64,000 nt of DNA, from the NCBI RefSeq assembly GCF_019599185.1, contig NZ_JAIEUL010000005.1, positions 124,001 through 188,000 of the forward strand. The letters run 5' to 3'. The stretch comes from Cryobacterium inferilacus. Its GTDB lineage: Bacteria > Actinomycetota > Actinomycetes > Actinomycetales > Microbacteriaceae. A program made the position numbers and the translations under genes. Of the stretch, positions 2,982 to 62,693 are shown piece by piece (the first letter of the stretch is position 1; each line of letters opens with the position of its first letter). Below the pieces are notes generated by a model. It made no database searches and was not told the DNA's origin. It worked only from the letters and a program-made list of their open reading frames with translations.

Positions 2982-3248
2982 TGATGCTCCACTTCGTTGT
3001 CAGACGCGTCATTACATCGGATTATTTCGTGGAAGTCACTCAATAAATCTGATTTCAGGTCGAGACACTATCAGTTATGTCTGCTTTGTCAAAGCCATTT
3101 CCCGGAACGCTGCTGAGGCGCATCTGGCGCGCGGTCAGGCCGGCGATGTTACGCCCCGCGGCCCGTCGACCGCTCGCCGGGCGGAGCCGGCCGCTCGATG
3201 CGACTACCCTAGAAAGTGGTCAAAGCTCACAGACCCGAAGGAGAACAC
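2982..3248. promoter_or_regulatory. Divergent promoter region between gntK and gnd
   Basis: This 267-base gap separates the leftward gluconate genes from rightward gnd. The half nearer gntK (about 2990-3085) is clearly more AT-rich than its surroundings. It contains a near-perfect palindrome AAATCTGATTT at 3045-3055 and a GACGCGTC palindrome at 3003-3010, either of which could be an operator for a gluconate-responsive regulator. On the gnd side, TACCCT at 3205-3210 fits an actinobacterial -10 box. These are readings by eye; no regulator gene is near. Confidence 0.45.
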
Positions 3249-4706
3249 GTGTCAGAAACCGGTTCAGCACAGGCAAACATCGGCGTGGTCGGACTGGCGG
3301 TGATGGGCTCCAACCTCGCCCGCAACCTCGCCAGCCGCGACGGCAACACCGTGGCCGTCTACAACCGTTCGCCCGAACGCACCCGCCTGCTCACGGATGA
3401 GCACCCCGAGGCCGGCTTCGTGGCATCCGAAACCATCGAGGACTTCGTCGCCTCGCTCAAGACCCCCCGCACCGCGATCATCATGGTGCAGGCCGGTAAG
3501 GGCACCGACGCCGTGATCAGCCAGCTGACCGAGCTGTTCGAGCCCGGCGACATCATCGTCGACGGCGGCAACGCCCTGTTCACCGACACCCTGCGCCGCG
3601 AGAAGACCGTGCGCGAGACCGGCATCAACTTCGTCGGCGCCGGTATCTCCGGTGGCGAAGAAGGCGCTCTCAAGGGCCCGAGCATCATGCCGGGCGGCTC
3701 CGCAGAGGCCTACGTCACCCTCGGCCCGATCCTCGAGTCGATTGCCGCGGTCGTCGACGGCGAGCCCTGCGTGACCCACGTCGGCACCGATGGCGCCGGC
3801 CATTTCGTCAAGATGATCCACAACGGCATCGAGTACGCCGACATGCAGCTCATCGGCGAGGCGTACGACCTCATCCGTCGCGGCACCGGCAAGACCCCGG
3901 CCGAGATCTCCGAGATCTTCACCGAGTGGAACAAGGGCGAACTCGAGAGCTACCTCATCGAGATCACCGCCGAGGTCCTCAAGCAGGTCGACGCGGAGAC
4001 CGGCAAGCCGCTCGTCGACGTGATCGTCGACCAAGCCGGCAGCAAGGGCACCGGCGTCTGGACCGTGCAGACCGCGCTCGACCTCGGCATCCCCGTCTCC
4101 GGCATCGCCGAGGCCGTGTTCGCCCGGTCCGTCTCCTCCAAGCCCGCGCAGCGTGCCGCTGCCGCCGCCCTGCCCGGCCCGACCGCCAACCCCGTCGAAG
4201 ACGTGGACGGCTTCATCGAGGGTGTGCGCCAGGCGCTGTACGCATCCAAGGTCATCGCCTACTCGCAGGGCTTCGACGCCATCGTCGCCGGCGCCGAGGA
4301 GTACAACTGGGACATCAAGAAGGGCGAGATCGCGAAGATCTGGCGCGGCGGCTGCATCATCCGCGCCCGCTTCCTCAACCGCATCACCGAGGCCTACACC
4401 GAGAACCCCGGGCTCGTCTCGCTGGTCACCGCCCCGTTCTTCACCGATGTCGTCGCCACGGCCCAGGACTCCTGGCGCAATGTCGTCGCCGACGCTGCCC
4501 ACGCGGGCATCCCGGCGCCGGTGTTCGCCTCGTCCCTGGCCTACTACGACAGCCTGCGCGCCGACCGCCTGCCCGCTGCCCTCACCCAGGGCCAGCGTGA
4601 CTTCTTCGGTGCGCACACCTACAAGCGCGTCGACAAGGACGGCACCTTCCACACGCTGTGGTCCGGCGACCGGTCCGAGATCGCCACGGAGGGCTCCTCG
4701 CACTAG
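3249..4706 (+). CDS. gnd: 6-phosphogluconate dehydrogenase, decarboxylating
   Basis: The chosen GTG start follows AAGGAG (3238-3243) at ideal spacing and gives 485 residues, the family norm; an earlier in-frame GTG at 3216 lacks a ribosome site. The N-terminal Rossmann motif is NIGVVGLAVMGSNLARN. The substrate-binding VDGGNALFTDT and GISGGEEGALKGPSIMPGG, and the catalytic lysine region HFVKMIHNGIEYADMQ, are all intact. The C-terminal domain has the expected QRDFFGAHTYKRVD. It converts 6-phosphogluconate to ribulose-5-phosphate with NADP(H) production, completing the gluconate route set up by gntP and gntK next door. Confidence 0.97.
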   Translation: MSETGSAQANIGVVGLAVMGSNLARNLASRDGNTVAVYNRSPERTRLLTDEHPEAGFVASETIEDFVASLKTPRTAIIMVQAGKGTDAVISQLTELFEPGDIIVDGGNALFTDTLRREKTVRETGINFVGAGISGGEEGALKGPSIMPGGSAEAYVTLGPILESIAAVVDGEPCVTHVGTDGAGHFVKMIHNGIEYADMQLIGEAYDLIRRGTGKTPAEISEIFTEWNKGELESYLIEITAEVLKQVDAETGKPLVDVIVDQAGSKGTGVWTVQTALDLGIPVSGIAEAVFARSVSSKPAQRAAAAALPGPTANPVEDVDGFIEGVRQALYASKVIAYSQGFDAIVAGAEEYNWDIKKGEIAKIWRGGCIIRARFLNRITEAYTENPGLVSLVTAPFFTDVVATAQDSWRNVVADAAHAGIPAPVFASSLAYYDSLRADRLPAALTQGQRDFFGAHTYKRVDKDGTFHTLWSGDRSEIATEGSSH

Positions 4707-4735: not shown

Positions 4736-4801
4736 AACTGTTGCCCGTGCGGACATTTGCGCCCGGTACGCCGGGACCATTTGTCCGCACGGGCAACAGT
4801 T
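4736..4801. repeat. 66-bp palindromic element, copy 1
   Basis: Perfect 20-base inverted arms (4736-4755 and 4782-4801, beginning AACTGTTGCCCGTGCGG) enclose a core with its own CCCGG/CCGGG stem. It lies between the convergent ends of gnd and the DUF559 gene and could end transcription both ways. A second copy of the same length and orientation, about 80% identical by eye, lies at 5906-5971 on the other side of the DUF559 gene. Size and symmetry resemble REP/REPIN-type elements. Confidence 0.85.
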
Positions 4802-4845
4802 CTCTGGTCACCCGGCCTGGATCGGCGCGGCTGGGACACCTCCGG

Positions 4846-5802
4846 TCAGCGGATGACCGGCAGCCCGGCCTCGACCAGGAGGCGCTGGAGCCTCCCCCGG
4901 TCGGTCAGCTCCGTCCAGCCCCAGCGCACCACCCTGAAGCCTTCGGCGCGGAGATGGTCCTCGCGCATCTTCTCCTCGTACACAACCTCGCCGGGACTCC
5001 GCCCGCGCAGGAACTCCTCCTTGAGGTACTTGCCCTTCCCGTCGAACTCCCCGATCACCCGGTGCGTCGGCCATTCCACGTCGGTGAAGTACCACCCGCC
5101 CCTGGGGTTGGCATGCCGGGTCTGCAGCTCGGGGTCGGGAAAGCCCAGTTCGAAGATGGCGACCCGGCTGAGCGACTCCCCCGGGTTGTCGGCGTTGGGC
5201 CGCGCGAAGTCGATGGCGCGCTGCGCCTTGGTGCTGCCGCGCACCGACCCACACCGGGCCAACAGCTCGCACAATTCGTCTGGGTAGACGAGCACCTCCG
5301 GTGTGGCCCGTCGAGGATTCATGGCGTGGTCGAGCGCGACGACGGCATTCTCGAAGGTCGTCGTTCGGGCCAGGTCGAGCAGGGTGCGCACCGGTCTGGT
5401 CACCAGCACTCCGTCGAGTTCGACGACGTCGGCCCAGTCGAACGCGGTGCGATGCACGAACACACCGTTCTTGCTGCGCACCCGCGATGCCGGCACGGCG
5501 AGCACGTGCACGTCCCGGGGCCAGGCGCCGCTCAGCGGGATGCCCCAGAGCGCCGCAGCGGACTGGTGGCTGACCACGGGGTCGTGCCGTCTGGTCTCGA
5601 CGACTGCACGGATCTGGTCGACGTAGCGGTCCCTGGCGGTCAGCCCGCCCCAGCGCTCGGCCGTCGTGAAGACCCCGCGGCGCAAGCGTGTCCCCTGGCC
5701 GTGATCGACCGATCGGCGGAAGGTCCGGGCGTCGGTGTCGGTCACTCCGATGCTCTTCACGAGGAACAGGCCCGTTCGGGGATCCAGCCGGTCATCAGTC
5801 AT
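4846..5802 (-). CDS. DUF559 predicted nuclease with AbiEi-like N-terminal region
   Basis: A 318-residue protein. The first half (LRRGVFTTAERWGGL, then SHQSAAALWGIPL) resembles the winged-helix region of AbiEi-type antitoxin domain proteins. The C-terminal 110 residues match DUF559, a Vsr-like PD-(D/E)XK nuclease fold: GESLSR near residue 208, DVEWPTHRVIGEFDGKGKY near 240-255 supplying acidic residues and a lysine, then EKMREDHLRAEGFRVVRWGW. Such proteins are numerous in Microbacteriaceae and their function is not established. No toxin partner is adjacent; the gene stands alone, flanked on both sides by the palindromic element. Nuclease activity is inferred from the fold. Confidence 0.8.
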   Translation of the reverse strand: MTDDRLDPRTGLFLVKSIGVTDTDARTFRRSVDHGQGTRLRRGVFTTAERWGGLTARDRYVDQIRAVVETRRHDPVVSHQSAAALWGIPLSGAWPRDVHVLAVPASRVRSKNGVFVHRTAFDWADVVELDGVLVTRPVRTLLDLARTTTFENAVVALDHAMNPRRATPEVLVYPDELCELLARCGSVRGSTKAQRAIDFARPNADNPGESLSRVAIFELGFPDPELQTRHANPRGGWYFTDVEWPTHRVIGEFDGKGKYLKEEFLRGRSPGEVVYEEKMREDHLRAEGFRVVRWGWTELTDRGRLQRLLVEAGLPVIR

Positions 5803-5905
5803 GCGGCAACAATCGCATCCGTTGTCTCACCGGTACCCAGCCCACGCGCGCCGGTGCAGAGCCGCCCGTCGCCCGTGCTGTGGAGGAGCCGCACCTCCAC
5901 CCGCT

Positions 5906-5971
5906 ATCTGTTACCGCTGCGGACAAGTGCACCCGGTGTGCCGGGACCACTTGTCCGCTTGGGAAACAGTT
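5906..5971. repeat. 66-bp palindromic element, copy 2
   Basis: Same length and orientation as the element at 4736-4801, with about 13 differences. Several changes keep the stem paired: here GGACAAGTG (5921-5929) faces CACTTGTCC (5948-5956). Its right end overlaps the TAA stop codon of the leftward permease gene (5970-5972), so the element forms the end of that reading frame. Confidence 0.8.
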
Positions 5972-7265
5972 AGCGCGGGGCGGGGGCCGAGGGAGCGGCG
6001 GGGGCGGCGGGGCGGCGGAGGGCGCGGGCGATCAGGCCCAGGGCGAGCCAGGCTGCGGCGGCGACGACGCCAGGCCAGGGCAGGGTCACGGCCAGGAGCA
6101 GGCAGCCGGCCACACCGAGGTATTGCACCCAGCGGGGCAGCCAGCGCTGCTCACGCGGCTGCCGGAGCGCGGCCAGGTGCGCGATGGCGTAGTAGACCAG
6201 TACCGCGCAGGCCGAGAAGCCCACTAGCTGGGCGGGATCCAGCAGCAGAACGCCGATGATCGCCACGAGGCCCATGCTCACCTCGGCGACCACCGGGCTC
6301 CGCCGGGTCGGCGAGATGCGCGCGAGCGCGCCGGGCAGGTCGCCCTCCCTGGCCATCGCCAGCCCGGTGCGGCTGAGACCGGCGAGGATGCCCGCCAGCG
6401 ACCCCAGGCAGGCGAGCGCCGCCAGCACCCTGGCGATGCCTGTCCACGGTTCGGCGCCGCCCACGAGGTCGGCCAGCGGCGAGACCGACGCCGCCAGAGA
6501 CGCCGGTGAGAGCACGACCACGCAGAGCACCCCGATCACCCCGTAGACGACCAGGGTGAGGGCCAGCGCGGTCACGATCGCCCGCGGCAGCGTACGGCGC
6601 GGGTCACGCACCTCCTCCCCCAGGGTCGCCATCCGGGCGTAGCCGGCGAAGGCGAAGAACAACAGGCCGGCCGACTGCAGGATGCCCGCCCAGCCGCCGT
6701 CGAACAGCGTCGCCGGGTCGAACGCGGCGGTTCGGGTGCCGCCTGCGAGCCCCGCGCCCACCGTGACCATCAACGCGAGCAGCCCGCCGAGCACGAGGAA
6801 CACCACCACGGCGCTGAGCCTGGCGGTGCTGCGGATCCCGGCGAGGTTGACGCCACCAAGGGCGAGCAGCGCGAGCAGGGCCACCGCACGGGCCTGCTCC
6901 GGCCAGAGGTACCCGCCCAGGATCAGGGCGATGGCACCGGCGGACGCCGTCTTGCCGGCCAGGAACAGCCACCCGGCCGAGAACCCCCACCACGGACCGA
7001 GGGTGGCCCGCCCGAACGCGTACGCTCCCCCGGAGACGGGATGGCTCATCGCCAGTTGCGCGGAGCTCAGGGCGTTCAGTGAGGCCAGGAGCCCGGCGAT
7101 GACCAGCCCGATGAGCAGGCCGGAGCCGGCCGCGGCCGCCGCCGGAGCCCAGACGTAGAACACGCCGGCGCCGATCATGGCGGCCAACCCCACCACCGTC
7201 GCCCCGGCGGTGCCCAGGTGCCGGGTGAGGGTGTCGTGGCGATCCGGCCCGCCCGTGGAAGTCAT
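5970..7265 (-). CDS. APC family amino acid permease
   Basis: A 431-residue membrane protein with about 12 segments. The family signature GATVVGLAAMIGAGVFYVWA is near residue 25, and GGAYAFGRATLGPWWGFSAGW near 88. It should exchange or import an amino acid or amine; the substrate cannot be told. The ATG at 7265 is preferred over an upstream in-frame codon because TACTCT (7272-7277, read leftwards) ends six bases before it, which suggests a leaderless transcript. The reading frame ends in an Ala-Pro-rich tail, and its stop codon lies in the palindromic element at 5906-5971. Confidence 0.88.
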   Translation of the reverse strand: MTSTGGPDRHDTLTRHLGTAGATVVGLAAMIGAGVFYVWAPAAAAAGSGLLIGLVIAGLLASLNALSSAQLAMSHPVSGGAYAFGRATLGPWWGFSAGWLFLAGKTASAGAIALILGGYLWPEQARAVALLALLALGGVNLAGIRSTARLSAVVVFLVLGGLLALMVTVGAGLAGGTRTAAFDPATLFDGGWAGILQSAGLLFFAFAGYARMATLGEEVRDPRRTLPRAIVTALALTLVVYGVIGVLCVVVLSPASLAASVSPLADLVGGAEPWTGIARVLAALACLGSLAGILAGLSRTGLAMAREGDLPGALARISPTRRSPVVAEVSMGLVAIIGVLLLDPAQLVGFSACAVLVYYAIAHLAALRQPREQRWLPRWVQYLGVAGCLLLAVTLPWPGVVAAAAWLALGLIARALRRPAAPAAPSAPAPR

Positions 7266-7271
7266 GCAGCC

Positions 7272-7277
7272 AGAGTA
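7272..7277 (-). promoter_or_regulatory. -10 box TACTCT, leaderless start of the APC permease
   Basis: TACTCT lies exactly six bases before the ATG, so transcription would begin at or next to the start codon. Confidence 0.45.
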
Positions 7278-7317
7278 GGGCCACAAGGTGAACAGTCTGA
7301 TTTACTGGAGGGCACCC

Positions 7318-15901: not shown

Positions 15902-16298
15902 AGGGTTCGAGCCTAGCCGTCGCAGCTGGGAGCCGGAACCGCACTCCCCTGCCCGGAAATCGAGCTGCGCGGGCACTGCGCCGCTCCGCGGGTGACACGC
16001 AACCCGCGAATCGGCGCCTGACCCGCGCACCGGCATCCGTGCCCGACGATGGTGGCGCCTGCCGCGCGCAGCGGCGCCCGCACTCGACCGTGATGGCGCC
16101 CGACCCGCGCAGCGGCGCCCGACCCGCGCAGCTTGGTCCCCGATGTGGTTCTCCCGAGCTGCGCGGGTACTGCGCCGCTCCGCGGGTGGCACCCAACCCG
16201 CGAATCGGCGCCTGACCCGCGCACCGGCATCCACGCCCGGGCGGACCGGGCCAGGCCAGACGCGCCCGGCGGAGACTGGGGAGCGCCCGGGCGCGAGG
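15902..16298. repeat. GC-rich repeat cluster with an 84-bp direct repeat
   Basis: This 397-base gap between ABC-F and ispE holds no convincing gene. An 84-bp unit at 15962-16045 recurs at 16156-16239 with five differences. Between them, GACCCGCGCAGC occurs twice in tandem (about 16102 and 16122), and ACCCGCGCAGCT (16122-16133) pairs with AGCTGCGCGGGT (16157-16168) in a perfect 12-bp stem. The ABC-F promoter must lie within or beside this cluster. Confidence 0.85.
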
Positions 16299-60512: not shown

Positions 60513-62693
60513 GTGAGCACCCGCGAGAACGCCCTCGAGATCCTCCGCACCCTGGTGGGCCGGCCAGACGCCGACTTCCACGAGGGCCAGTACGAGGCCA
60601 TCGAAACCCTCGTCGACCAGCGCCGCCGGGCCCTGGTGGTGCAGCGCACCGGCTGGGGCAAGTCGGCGGTCTACTTCGTCGCGACCCTGCTGCTGCGCCG
60701 CCAGGGTGCCGGTCCCACCATCCTGGTTTCGCCGCTGCTGGCGCTGATGCGCGACCAGGTGGCCGCGGCGGCCCGCGCCGGGGTGCGGGCCGTGTCGATC
60801 AACTCGGCCAACGCCCACGAGTGGACCGACGTGCTCGCTCAGCTGCGCGCCGACGAGGTCGATGTGCTCCTGGTCTCCCCCGAACGGCTGAACAACCCGT
60901 CCTTCCGTGACGAGCAGCTGCCCGCCCTGCTCGAGCGGGTCGGCCTGCTCGTGGTCGATGAGGCGCACTGCATCTCGGACTGGGGTCACGACTTCCGGCC
61001 TGACTACCGGCGCCTGCGCGACCTGATCGCGGCCATGCCGGCCGGCGTGCCGGTGCTGGCCACCACGGCAACGGCCAACAGCCGGGTGGTGACGGATGTG
61101 GCGGAGCAGCTGGTCTCGACAGGCTCGACCCAAGCGACAGGCTCGACCCAAGCGACAGGCTCGACCCAAGCGACAAGCTCGATCCAAGGGTGGGGCAGTG
61201 ACGTCGTCACCATCCGTGGCCCGCTCGCCCGCGCGTCACTCCGGCTGGGCGTGCTGCGGCTGCCCGACTCCCGCGCCCGGTTGGCCTGGCTGCTCAGCCA
61301 CCTTGCCGAGCTGCCCGGCAGCGGCATCATCTACACGCTCACGGTCTCGGCCGCGGAAGACACCGCCAGGCTGTTGCGGGACGCCGGCCACGCCGTGCGC
61401 GCCTACACCGGCCAGACCGACACCACCGAGCGCGAGGAGTCCGAGGGGCTGCTCAAGGCCAACCAGGTCAAGGCACTCGTGGCGACCAGCGCTCTGGGCA
61501 TGGGCTTCGACAAGCCCGACCTCGGTTTTGTGCTGCACCTGGGCGCGCCAAGCTCCCCCGTCGCGTACTACCAGCAGGTGGGCCGCGCCGGCCGCGCCAC
61601 CGAGAACGCCGACGTGCTGCTGCTGCCCGGTGTGGAGGACGAGGCCATCTGGCAGTACTTCGCCACCTCGTCGATGCCCAGCCAGCACAAGGCAGAGGCC
61701 GTGCTCCTGGCCCTGGCCGCCAATGGCGGCGCCCCGCTGTCCACCCCGGCGCTCGAATCCCGGGTAGACCTGCGCCGCTCCCCCCTCGAACTGCTGCTCA
61801 AGGTGCTCGACGTCGACGGCGCCGTGCGCCGGGTGACCGGCGGCTGGCTGGCCACCGGAGAGCCCTGGGTGTACGACAGTGATCGGTACGAACGCATCGG
61901 CGCCGCCCGCGTCGCCGAGCAGAACGCCATGCTCGACTACGAACGCATCACCGCCTGCCGGATGGAGTTCCTCCAGCGCGCCCTCGACGACGACACCGCC
62001 GTGCCCTGCGGCCGCTGCGACAACTGCACCACCGCCTGGTACCCCACCGACGTGAACACCGAGGCGGCCAGCACCGCCGCCTCCGCCCTGGACCGGGTGG
62101 GTGTCGCCCTCGAACCCCGCGCGCAGTGGCCCACCGGCGCCGACAGGCTCGGCGTGAGCGCCAAGGGCCGCATCGACCCCGCTGACCGGATCCTGCCCGG
62201 CCGCGCCCTGGCCCGGCTCACCGACCTCGGTTGGGGCAACGCCCTGCGCGACGTCTTCGCGCCGAACACCCCGGATGCCCCCGCGTCGCCTGCCCTGCTG
62301 GCCGCCTGTGTGCGGGTGCTCGCCGAGTGGGGCTGGGCCGAGCGACCCGTCGGCGTGGTGGCCATGCCGTCCAGGGCGCATCCGCTGCTCGTGGCGTCGG
62401 TGGCCGAGGAGCTCAGCCGGGTGGGACGCTTGCCGCTGCTGGGCACGCTCGGCCTGGTCGGCGCCGGGCCCAGCGGCGAGACCGGCGGCAACAGCGCCTA
62501 CCGGCTGTCCAGTGTCTGGGGCGCCTTCGAGGTGGGGCCGGAGCTGGCCGCGAATCTCGCCGGCGCGACCGGACCGGTGCTGCTGGTCGACGACCTCGGC
62601 GACAGCCGCTGGACCATCACCGTGGCCGGGCGCCTGCTGCGCCGGGCGGGCGCTCCCGGGGTGCTGCCGTTCACGCTGGCCCTGCGCTCCTAG
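60513..62693 (+). CDS. RecQ family helicase fused to a phosphoribosyltransferase-like domain
   Basis: 726 residues. RecQ core: QRTGWGKSAVYFVATLL (motif I) near 48, LLVVDEAHCISDWGHDFRPDY (motif II and aromatic loop) near 150, ATTATANSRVV (motif III) near 190, and QQVGRAGRA (motif VI). The zinc module has CRMEF and PCGRCDNC. The C-terminal 120 residues contain GPVLLVDDLGDSRWTITVAG, the PRPP-loop pattern of type I phosphoribosyltransferases, in place of HRDC. Between motif III and the second RecA domain the frame holds a tandem repeat array (61115-61186). The enzyme should unwind DNA 3'-5'; the PRTase part may only sense ligands. Confidence 0.9.
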   Translation: MSTRENALEILRTLVGRPDADFHEGQYEAIETLVDQRRRALVVQRTGWGKSAVYFVATLLLRRQGAGPTILVSPLLALMRDQVAAAARAGVRAVSINSANAHEWTDVLAQLRADEVDVLLVSPERLNNPSFRDEQLPALLERVGLLVVDEAHCISDWGHDFRPDYRRLRDLIAAMPAGVPVLATTATANSRVVTDVAEQLVSTGSTQATGSTQATGSTQATSSIQGWGSDVVTIRGPLARASLRLGVLRLPDSRARLAWLLSHLAELPGSGIIYTLTVSAAEDTARLLRDAGHAVRAYTGQTDTTEREESEGLLKANQVKALVATSALGMGFDKPDLGFVLHLGAPSSPVAYYQQVGRAGRATENADVLLLPGVEDEAIWQYFATSSMPSQHKAEAVLLALAANGGAPLSTPALESRVDLRRSPLELLLKVLDVDGAVRRVTGGWLATGEPWVYDSDRYERIGAARVAEQNAMLDYERITACRMEFLQRALDDDTAVPCGRCDNCTTAWYPTDVNTEAASTAASALDRVGVALEPRAQWPTGADRLGVSAKGRIDPADRILPGRALARLTDLGWGNALRDVFAPNTPDAPASPALLAACVRVLAEWGWAERPVGVVAMPSRAHPLLVASVAEELSRVGRLPLLGTLGLVGAGPSGETGGNSAYRLSSVWGAFEVGPELAANLAGATGPVLLVDDLGDSRWTITVAGRLLRRAGAPGVLPFTLALRS
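61115..61186 (+). repeat. Four tandem 18-bp units inside the RecQ gene
   Basis: Units 61115-61132, 61133-61150, 61151-61168 and 61169-61186, of the form AGCGACAGGCTCGACCCA, the middle two identical. They encode STGSTQA repeats. The unit contains CGACAGGCTC, shared with the dispersed repeat in tatD. Eighteen bases per unit keeps the frame whatever the copy number. Confidence 0.95.

Follow-up and report, generated by a model that had tools for sequence, protein, structure and literature searches.

REP sequences and their RAYT transposases form the closest described counterpart of the locus considered here. In the relevant portions of two reports (PMC2817692, PMC3733652), REPs are described as intergenic palindromes that occur in many copies near the 3' ends of genes, with an enzyme gene located between two REPs and with wording that is specific to the enzyme. 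According to the same portion of the 2010 study, RAYTs that satisfied its criteria occurred solely in gammaproteobacteria (PMC2817692). Two further groups of proteins bear on the locus. AbiEi and Rv2827c bind inverted repeats, four of them in the case of Rv2827c, as stated in the part of the report concerned (PMC7319586), and a family of Vsr-like homing endonucleases that includes I-Bth0305I goes by the name EDxHD in an excerpt of another report (PMC6083498). In the openly licensed PMC literature, no paper was found that connects nucleases of the DUF559 or AbiEi type with palindromes scattered through a genome.

In this study, we analysed a stretch of 64,000 nucleotides (the window) from contig 55 of a Cryobacterium genome of 4.02 Mb in 75 contigs. 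On balance, we favor the reading that the bracketed gene of this window belongs to a non-homologous analogue of REP/RAYT, in which a nuclease would bind and disperse its cognate palindrome.

The bracketed nuclease gene and its palindromes

A sequence-only reading of this DNA had described two 66-bp palindromes of equal length and the same orientation, about 80% identical, on the two sides of a stand-alone gene for a protein with an AbiEi-like N-terminus and a Vsr-like nuclease part, and this description was borne out (Table 1). The palindromes share their register and are identical at 53 of 66 positions, and they fold with z scores of -9.8 (palindrome 1) and -7.2 (palindrome 2), with none of 200 shuffles equally good. 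Their position weight matrix scores are 102 and 86, respectively, and the best score in ten shuffled windows was -43.

Table 1. Coordinates of the bracketed locus within the window.
Feature	Position	Strand	Context or evidence
Bracketing palindrome 1, 66 bp	4736..4801	none	gap between gnd and the nuclease gene, whose 3' ends converge
Bracketing palindrome 2, 66 bp	5906..5971	none	on the 5' side of the nuclease gene; the permease stop codon overlaps its end
Predicted AbiEi-Vsr fusion nuclease gene, 318 aa	4846..5802	minus	single gene between the two palindromes
AbiEi-like N-terminal part, residues 1-201	5200..5802	minus	PADLOC AbiEi; 6y8q structure match
Vsr/EDxHD-like C-terminal nuclease domain (predicted), residues 205-315	4858..5190	minus	3r3p and 1cw0 matches; conserved residues
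gnd (6-phosphogluconate dehydrogenase)	3216..4706	plus	locus anchor in relatives; Pfam 6PGD
Amino-acid permease gene	5970..7286	minus	stop codon abuts palindrome 2; Pfam AA_permease_2

The same reading had also stated that paired changes keep the stem of the palindromes, a claim that did not survive comparison. At the stem positions where the two window copies differ, no pair shows a change in both partners that leaves it paired in each copy, and over 24 copies the arms pair in 84.5% of cells versus 86.4% with shuffled partners. A covarying hairpin is therefore rejected, and because the arms do not covary they look like independent half-sites for a protein. In the 24 full copies, little or no variation is seen in the core (CGGACA, TG, CCGG and its mirror) or in most of the outer AACTGTT, and the consensus starts with AACTGTT and ends with AACAGTT.

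The window protein was modelled from an alignment of 53 sequences (pLDDT 90.5, pTM 0.87). Residues 1-201 of the model match AbiEi (6y8q; Z 11.8, rmsd 6.1, 179 residues aligned) and Rv2827c (1zel; Z 8.7), the latter being the best Foldseek match, and PADLOC assigns residues 11-171 to AbiEi with an E value of 5.8e-18. Residues 206-315 of the model, in the C-terminal domain, match the catalytic domain of I-Bth0305I (3r3p; Z 11.1, with 94 residues aligned at rmsd 2.6) and also Vsr (1cw0; Z 9.5). E209, E252, D254, and K258 are present in 53 of 53 aligned sequences and D241 in 52 of 53; these residues are of a catalytic type, and the fold suggests a catalytic role for them. As modelled, the window protein appears to be an AbiEi-like DNA-binding part fused to a part that resembles Vsr and homing endonucleases. 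Among 35 distant homologs, the winged-helix part (residues 1-70) diverges fastest, with 37% identity versus 52% in the nuclease part. A sequence search of solved structures returned two chance-level matches only.

The label DUF559, which had been attached to this gene from its sequence, can be kept in a qualified sense. Pfam detects no domain in the window protein, DUF559 (PF04480) included, and the DUF559 model matches two of the 53 homologs weakly (E up to 0.1); two distant bracketed genes (L344 and L369) pass its cut-off. Because the Pfam model misses the window protein and 51 of the 53 homologs, the label holds by fold and by distant relatives. The neighbors of the gene are gnd and the amino-acid permease gene, so that a toxin or methylase partner is lacking beside it, and an adjacent AbiEii-type toxin gene is likewise absent.

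Other repeats were seen elsewhere in the window. Two 85-bp direct repeats (94% alike) flank a long palindrome (16103-16187) at positions 15961-16239, and stretches of two relatives that align near this region carry an R1-type palindrome. At positions 61117-61188, an 18-bp unit is present in tandem copies.

Distribution, bracketing, and wording in relatives

Searched with a covariance model, the own genome yielded 68 places (E<=1e-3), 66 of which score with the family matrix, while the remaining two belong to a different 66-bp family, the GAGTTGCCC type. None of the 68 places lies within a called gene. The 62 places away from contig edges occupy 35 tandem, 19 convergent, and 8 divergent gaps, as assigned with a codon-based gene caller made for this analysis. 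The nearest gene end is a 3' end at 51 of these 62 sites and a 5' end at 11, and in tandem gaps the palindrome is nearer the 3' end in 32 of 35 cases. Convergent gaps hold 19 of the 62 sites, yet they account for 4408 of 47541 intergenic bases in the stretches examined. Like REPs, the majority of the 66 copies in the own genome stand alone.

Within the genus, one or more matches (E<=1e-4) are present in 35 of the 57 Cryobacterium genomes, and the other 22 have none; match numbers range from 0 to at least 91 per genome, with one site usually counted on both strands. When species genomes were scanned for the palindrome core, all among the matches listed (at least 80) came from Cryobacterium. A phage origin of the palindromes was rejected after a search of viral_contigs, in which 0 stretches with the exact core were found.

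The two palindromes of the GAGTTGCCC type (C44:247075-247140, L177, and C66:130685-130750, L182) follow the general design of the main family. In six other cases (L173, L175, L176, L179, L180, and L181), a palindrome is broken outside the conserved core by a repeated insert, which is of two kinds, and the contigs concerned end within the insert. An IS3-like element was considered for one insert, but a Pfam search of a 77-aa fragment detected no transposase; insertion sequences that target REPs are reported in the relevant part of the 2010 study (PMC2817692).

The gnd locus was examined in all 57 genomes, with 245 bases behind gnd covered in G054. A homolog of at least 60% identity is present in 18 of them and adjoins gnd in every one. 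Palindromes lie on both sides of the gene in 15 of these 18 genomes and on one side in three, namely on the gnd side only in G001 and G031 and on the opposite side only in G040, where the gnd side shows the apparent remaining start of a palindrome. Relatives with the gene and never the repeat, a pattern that had been named as adverse to a link between the two, were not encountered, as each of the 18 orthologs is accompanied by a palindrome on one side or both. The 39 genomes without the gene at gnd carry no palindrome there in 37 cases and exactly one in the cases of G005 and G017. By eye, the gap behind gnd in six gene-free stretches (L228, L232, L233, L241, L243, and L248) contains palindromes of unrelated wording.

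Palindrome matches anywhere in the genome are present in 18 of 18 genomes with the gene versus 17 of 39 without it, and match numbers differ between the two sets with a Mann-Whitney p of 1.3e-8, a value that ignores descent and in which the top counts stand for at least 91. By protein identity the 18 gene-bearing genomes form about two groups, so descent confounds gene presence and copy number. Many copies are found without the gene at gnd in G005 (78 matches) and G017 (76 matches), and G008, G051, G054, and G016 have 18 to 46 matches and no close ortholog; for these six genomes, one has to assume an enzyme that was present in the past or is more distantly related.

Dispersed sites are rarely common to distant genomes. 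The own genome shares 1 of 20 such sites with G009 and 1 of 23 with G010, versus two of two bracketing sites in each, and G009 and G010 have 15 of 22 sites in common; this control used 22 of about 23 sites of G009 and 25 of about 29 of G010, some of the remainder falling below the matrix cut-off, and scored sites whose flanks no longer align as unshared. The few shared dispersed sites argue against old shared sites as the cause of bracketing. In the close group, other species have 86 palindromes, 43 of which occupy sites where the own genome has one as well (six of the 43 rest on alignments shorter than 160 bp), and because sharing is common there, it proves little.

Bracketing was then assessed at 53 loci, consisting of the window and 52 homolog loci (39-84% identity) from Cryobacterium and other Microbacteriaceae, used as they came from the searches; 18 of the 53 are the gnd locus. 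With a palindrome required within 400 bp on each side and a mutual similarity of at least 18, matched pairs bracket the gene at 30 of 53 loci (14 at gnd and 16 of the 35 elsewhere) versus 1 of 226 control genes taken from a palindrome-rich set (Fisher p 1e-24). A flank-to-flank similarity of at least 20 is reached at 37 of 53 loci, and 16 of the 53 homolog loci remain below this value; among 405 control genes, from 800 kb of sequence of two other genera, three reach it. Two of the three scoring control genes are the sole two family members in that sample according to an alignment-profile search, and the third, the product of which is a different kind of protein, has a shared flank with no evident palindrome. 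When these 405 genes were put blind through the palindrome test, just one passed, and Pfam identifies it as a DUF559 gene (34.5 bits, cut-off 20.6) that also matches AbiEi_4 below threshold. Copies scattered with no link to DUF559 genes had been regarded as fatal to the idea of a connection; most copies are indeed solo, but the bracketing frequencies and the identity of the sole blind match speak for such a link.

The association extends to more distant genes. Of 11 distant homolog loci in PLSDB records (Tsukamurella, Arthrobacter, and Collinsella), 6 have a flank score of at least 20, the gene ends of three of the 11 having been assigned in this analysis. In the own genome, four of eight other DUF559-like loci reach 20 with other repeats (36 on C6, 27.5 and 24.5 at two loci on C66, and 37 on C21), and the other four fail. 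At one Collinsella locus, two or three palindromes stand in a row on each side of the homolog gene (L363:957-1178 and L363:2362-2504), and at L271 a direct repeat of about 200 bp, far longer than one palindrome, is common to both flanks.

The 30 palindrome pairs fall into seven wording clusters (similarity 24, single linkage). The left and right palindromes of one gene have a median score of 40.5 in these pairs, which were pre-selected at 18 or more, and the corresponding score between palindromes of different genes is 39 at protein identities of at least 60% and 12 for more distant genes. Protein identity and palindrome similarity are correlated with a Mantel rho of 0.60 (reached in 0 of 999 permutations), and the Spearman coefficient is 0.21 below 60% identity. 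As far as sequence comparison goes, the wording of the palindrome is co-divergent with the protein.

Four other palindrome types are dispersed in genomes that hold a bracketed gene of the same type. The L208 type has matches in 12 of 57 Cryobacterium genomes and none in the own genome; it was found at 5 places in G050, 13 in G054, and 10 in G023, and as the bracketing pair only in G047. These four genomes, the ones examined among the 12, contain bracketed homologs with related palindromes (L208, L209, L211, and L214). The L276 type occupies 15 places in G194 and otherwise occurs in 1 of 22 genomes, where it lies beside that genome's own homolog. In 400 kb each of G062 and G203, the L275 type is present twice in G062 and is absent from G203, and the L269 type is present five times in G203 and is absent from G062.

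Many of these palindromes also have a layout in common. Direct repeats within the arms were sought at offsets of 14 to 27 in the 60 palindromes of the 30 pairs, with p values obtained by arm shuffling. Significant repeats (p<=0.05) were detected in 31 of 60 palindromes, which span five of the seven wording clusters, and all 31 are at offset 19. No significant arm repeat was detected in the other 29, including both window copies (p 0.055 at offset 18, and 0.77). In the second-group orthologs L202 and L204, a 12-bp word is repeated exactly. An arm repeat at offset 19 means that a palindrome has up to four copies of its word, two per arm. At the locus of a shorter homolog (L341:15840-16694), the flanking repeats have by eye a step of about 29 bp, which is about one helical turn above 19.

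A proposed mechanism and its alternatives

It is very probable that the protein binds the repeated words of its palindrome. The joint proposal that it binds these words, acts as a nuclease at the palindrome, and thereby spreads new copies is one that we hold to be somewhat better than an even chance. The gene product would be a sequence-specific DNA-binding nuclease, the AbiEi-like part of which recognizes a word of about 8-12 bp. Its own palindrome contains as many as four copies of this word, each arm having two that are 19 bp apart, and the two arms mirror each other about the center. The Vsr/EDxHD-type part would nick or cut at these words, and repair or copying after the cut might occasionally put a new palindrome in another intergenic site, with new copies probably best tolerated just behind the 3' ends of genes. 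The gene itself seems to stay put between two palindromes, with one copy of its subfamily per genome, and if gene and palindrome drift together, each lineage would come to have its own wording. The RAYT-like part that the sequence-only reading had considered for DUF559 proteins thus finds good support as an association, seen in bracketing, co-divergence, and dispersal, and the support does not extend to the cutting or moving of palindromes. A comparison of empty and filled sites in seven candidate pairs, the flanks of which were too diverged, revealed neither movement nor a target-site duplication nor a clean empty site.

Among the alternatives, the one that survives best treats the palindromes as operators: an AbiEi-type regulator would repress its own gene from the 5' palindrome, the scattered copies would be sites of a regulator, a terminator-tuner, or a chromosome organizer, another agent or selection would spread them, and the nuclease would have another job. 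We consider this rather improbable, and it remains serious because AbiEi-like autoregulation is published, AbiEi and Rv2827c both being autoregulated through inverted repeats, and Rv2827c through four, in the portion of the report concerned (PMC7319586). The repeated-word layout would suit two dimers, the conserved core with its non-covarying arms fits a protein site, and the 51 of 62 non-edge sites nearest a gene 3' end lie where a terminator or insulator would act. However, autorepression needs no second palindrome behind the gene, and only 11 of the 62 sites are nearest a 5' end. Match numbers that vary from 0 to at least 91 between congeneric species, together with the few dispersed sites shared by distant genomes, are unlike a conserved regulon. 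By itself, the operator reading leaves the palindrome behind the gene, the preference for 3' ends, and the turnover of sites without an explanation.

It is also possible, if quite unlikely, that palindrome, gene, and palindrome form a mobile, transposon-like cassette and that solo palindromes are remnants of recombination or internal deletion in the manner of solo LTRs. This option had been raised from the sequence alone, and it receives weak support from G005 and G017, which retain exactly one palindrome where the gene is absent, as well as from the patchy presence of the gene at gnd (18 of 57 genomes). Against this, the own genome has one gene of the subfamily for 66 palindromes (the next homolog is 43% identical) and hence no second copy of the unit, orthologs of two divergent groups all reside at one locus, and neither a clean empty site nor a target duplication was found in the seven candidate pairs with diverged flanks.

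Very little weight can be given to a self/non-self function, in which the palindromes would mark or protect host DNA and the nuclease would attack DNA that lacks or carries them, as a defense or addiction module. AbiEi-like parts do occur in abortive-infection systems (PADLOC matches), and the faster divergence of the winged-helix part (37% versus 52% identity among the 35 distant homologs) would be in keeping with it, but no toxin or methylase partner is found next to the window gene, and G047 has just the two bracketing copies of its family's palindrome. That the palindromes are ordinary bidirectional terminators with the nuclease gene as a passenger between two of them is scarcely credible, since possible strong hairpins near 3' ends and the excess in convergent gaps (19 of 62 sites against 4408 of 47541 intergenic bases) would be expected, whereas terminators need neither a conserved 66-bp wording, in a palindrome missing from 22 of 57 genomes of the genus, nor matched bracketing with other wordings in other genera, nor a 19-bp step.

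Comparison with known systems

A nuclease that binds and disperses its own palindrome would be most similar to REP/RAYT (TnpA_REP, REPtrons), which those reports describe as multi-copy intergenic palindromes near 3' ends, a gene flanked by two of them, and wording that varies by enzyme. Features of the RAYT type are present here, as the gene is flanked on both sides (15 of 18 orthologs; 30 of 53 loci) and the flanking repeat is dispersed (66 own copies). A RAYT as the agent in the own genome is ruled out by 0 matches to the Y1 transposase (PF01797), a search in which the control matched in 5 of 14 named genomes.

The differences are equally plain. The modelled enzyme is an AbiEi-Vsr fusion, whereas a RAYT is a Y1/HUH transposase (PF01797). 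Unlike REPs, the palindromes here are about 56-80 bp long and contain as many as four words spaced at 19 bp, and they have the consensus AACTGTT...AACAGTT in place of the GTAG/CGTC tag given in the relevant part of PMC3733652. The system is found in actinobacteria, unlike the RAYTs of the 2010 study, which the portion concerned places in gammaproteobacteria.

With AbiEi and Rv2827c of the type IV toxin-antitoxin systems, the window protein has in common the predicted two-domain fold of residues 1-201, but it differs in its nuclease fusion, in the lack of a neighboring toxin gene, and in sites that lie behind the gene and are scattered in the genome. Residues 205-315 resemble Vsr and the EDxHD homing endonuclease I-Bth0305I in fold and in conserved acidic and lysine residues; as differences, no intron or intein context was seen, and the gene is associated with palindromes, not with mismatches or the homing site of an intron.

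If the proposed reading is true, it would provide a function for a family of nucleases that is numerous and so far unexplained, would explain a layer of repeats at the 3' ends of actinobacterial genes, and would mean that systems of scattered palindromes and a nuclease gene bracketed by them have originated two or more times, each time with an unrelated enzyme. Since many such pairs of protein and palindrome exist in nature, the recognition of DNA by the AbiEi-like winged helix can be tested directly. A wider possibility, to which we give slightly less than an even chance, is that a second and independently evolved REP-like world extends through the Actinomycetota, in which very many AbiEi-Vsr (DUF559-type) nucleases each have their own palindrome, with as many as four words at a step of 19 bp, and copy it into intergenic DNA, and the co-evolution of words and winged helix forms a natural DNA-recognition code.

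The enzyme and the repeat layout of this system differ from those of REP/RAYT, the only analogue known to us. Bracketing by enzyme-specific palindromes in actinobacteria, scattered in the families that were checked, suggests a second, independently invented repeat-spreading system, one that works like REP/RAYT and yet is no member of it, with both the Y1 transposase and the GTAG/CGTC tag absent.
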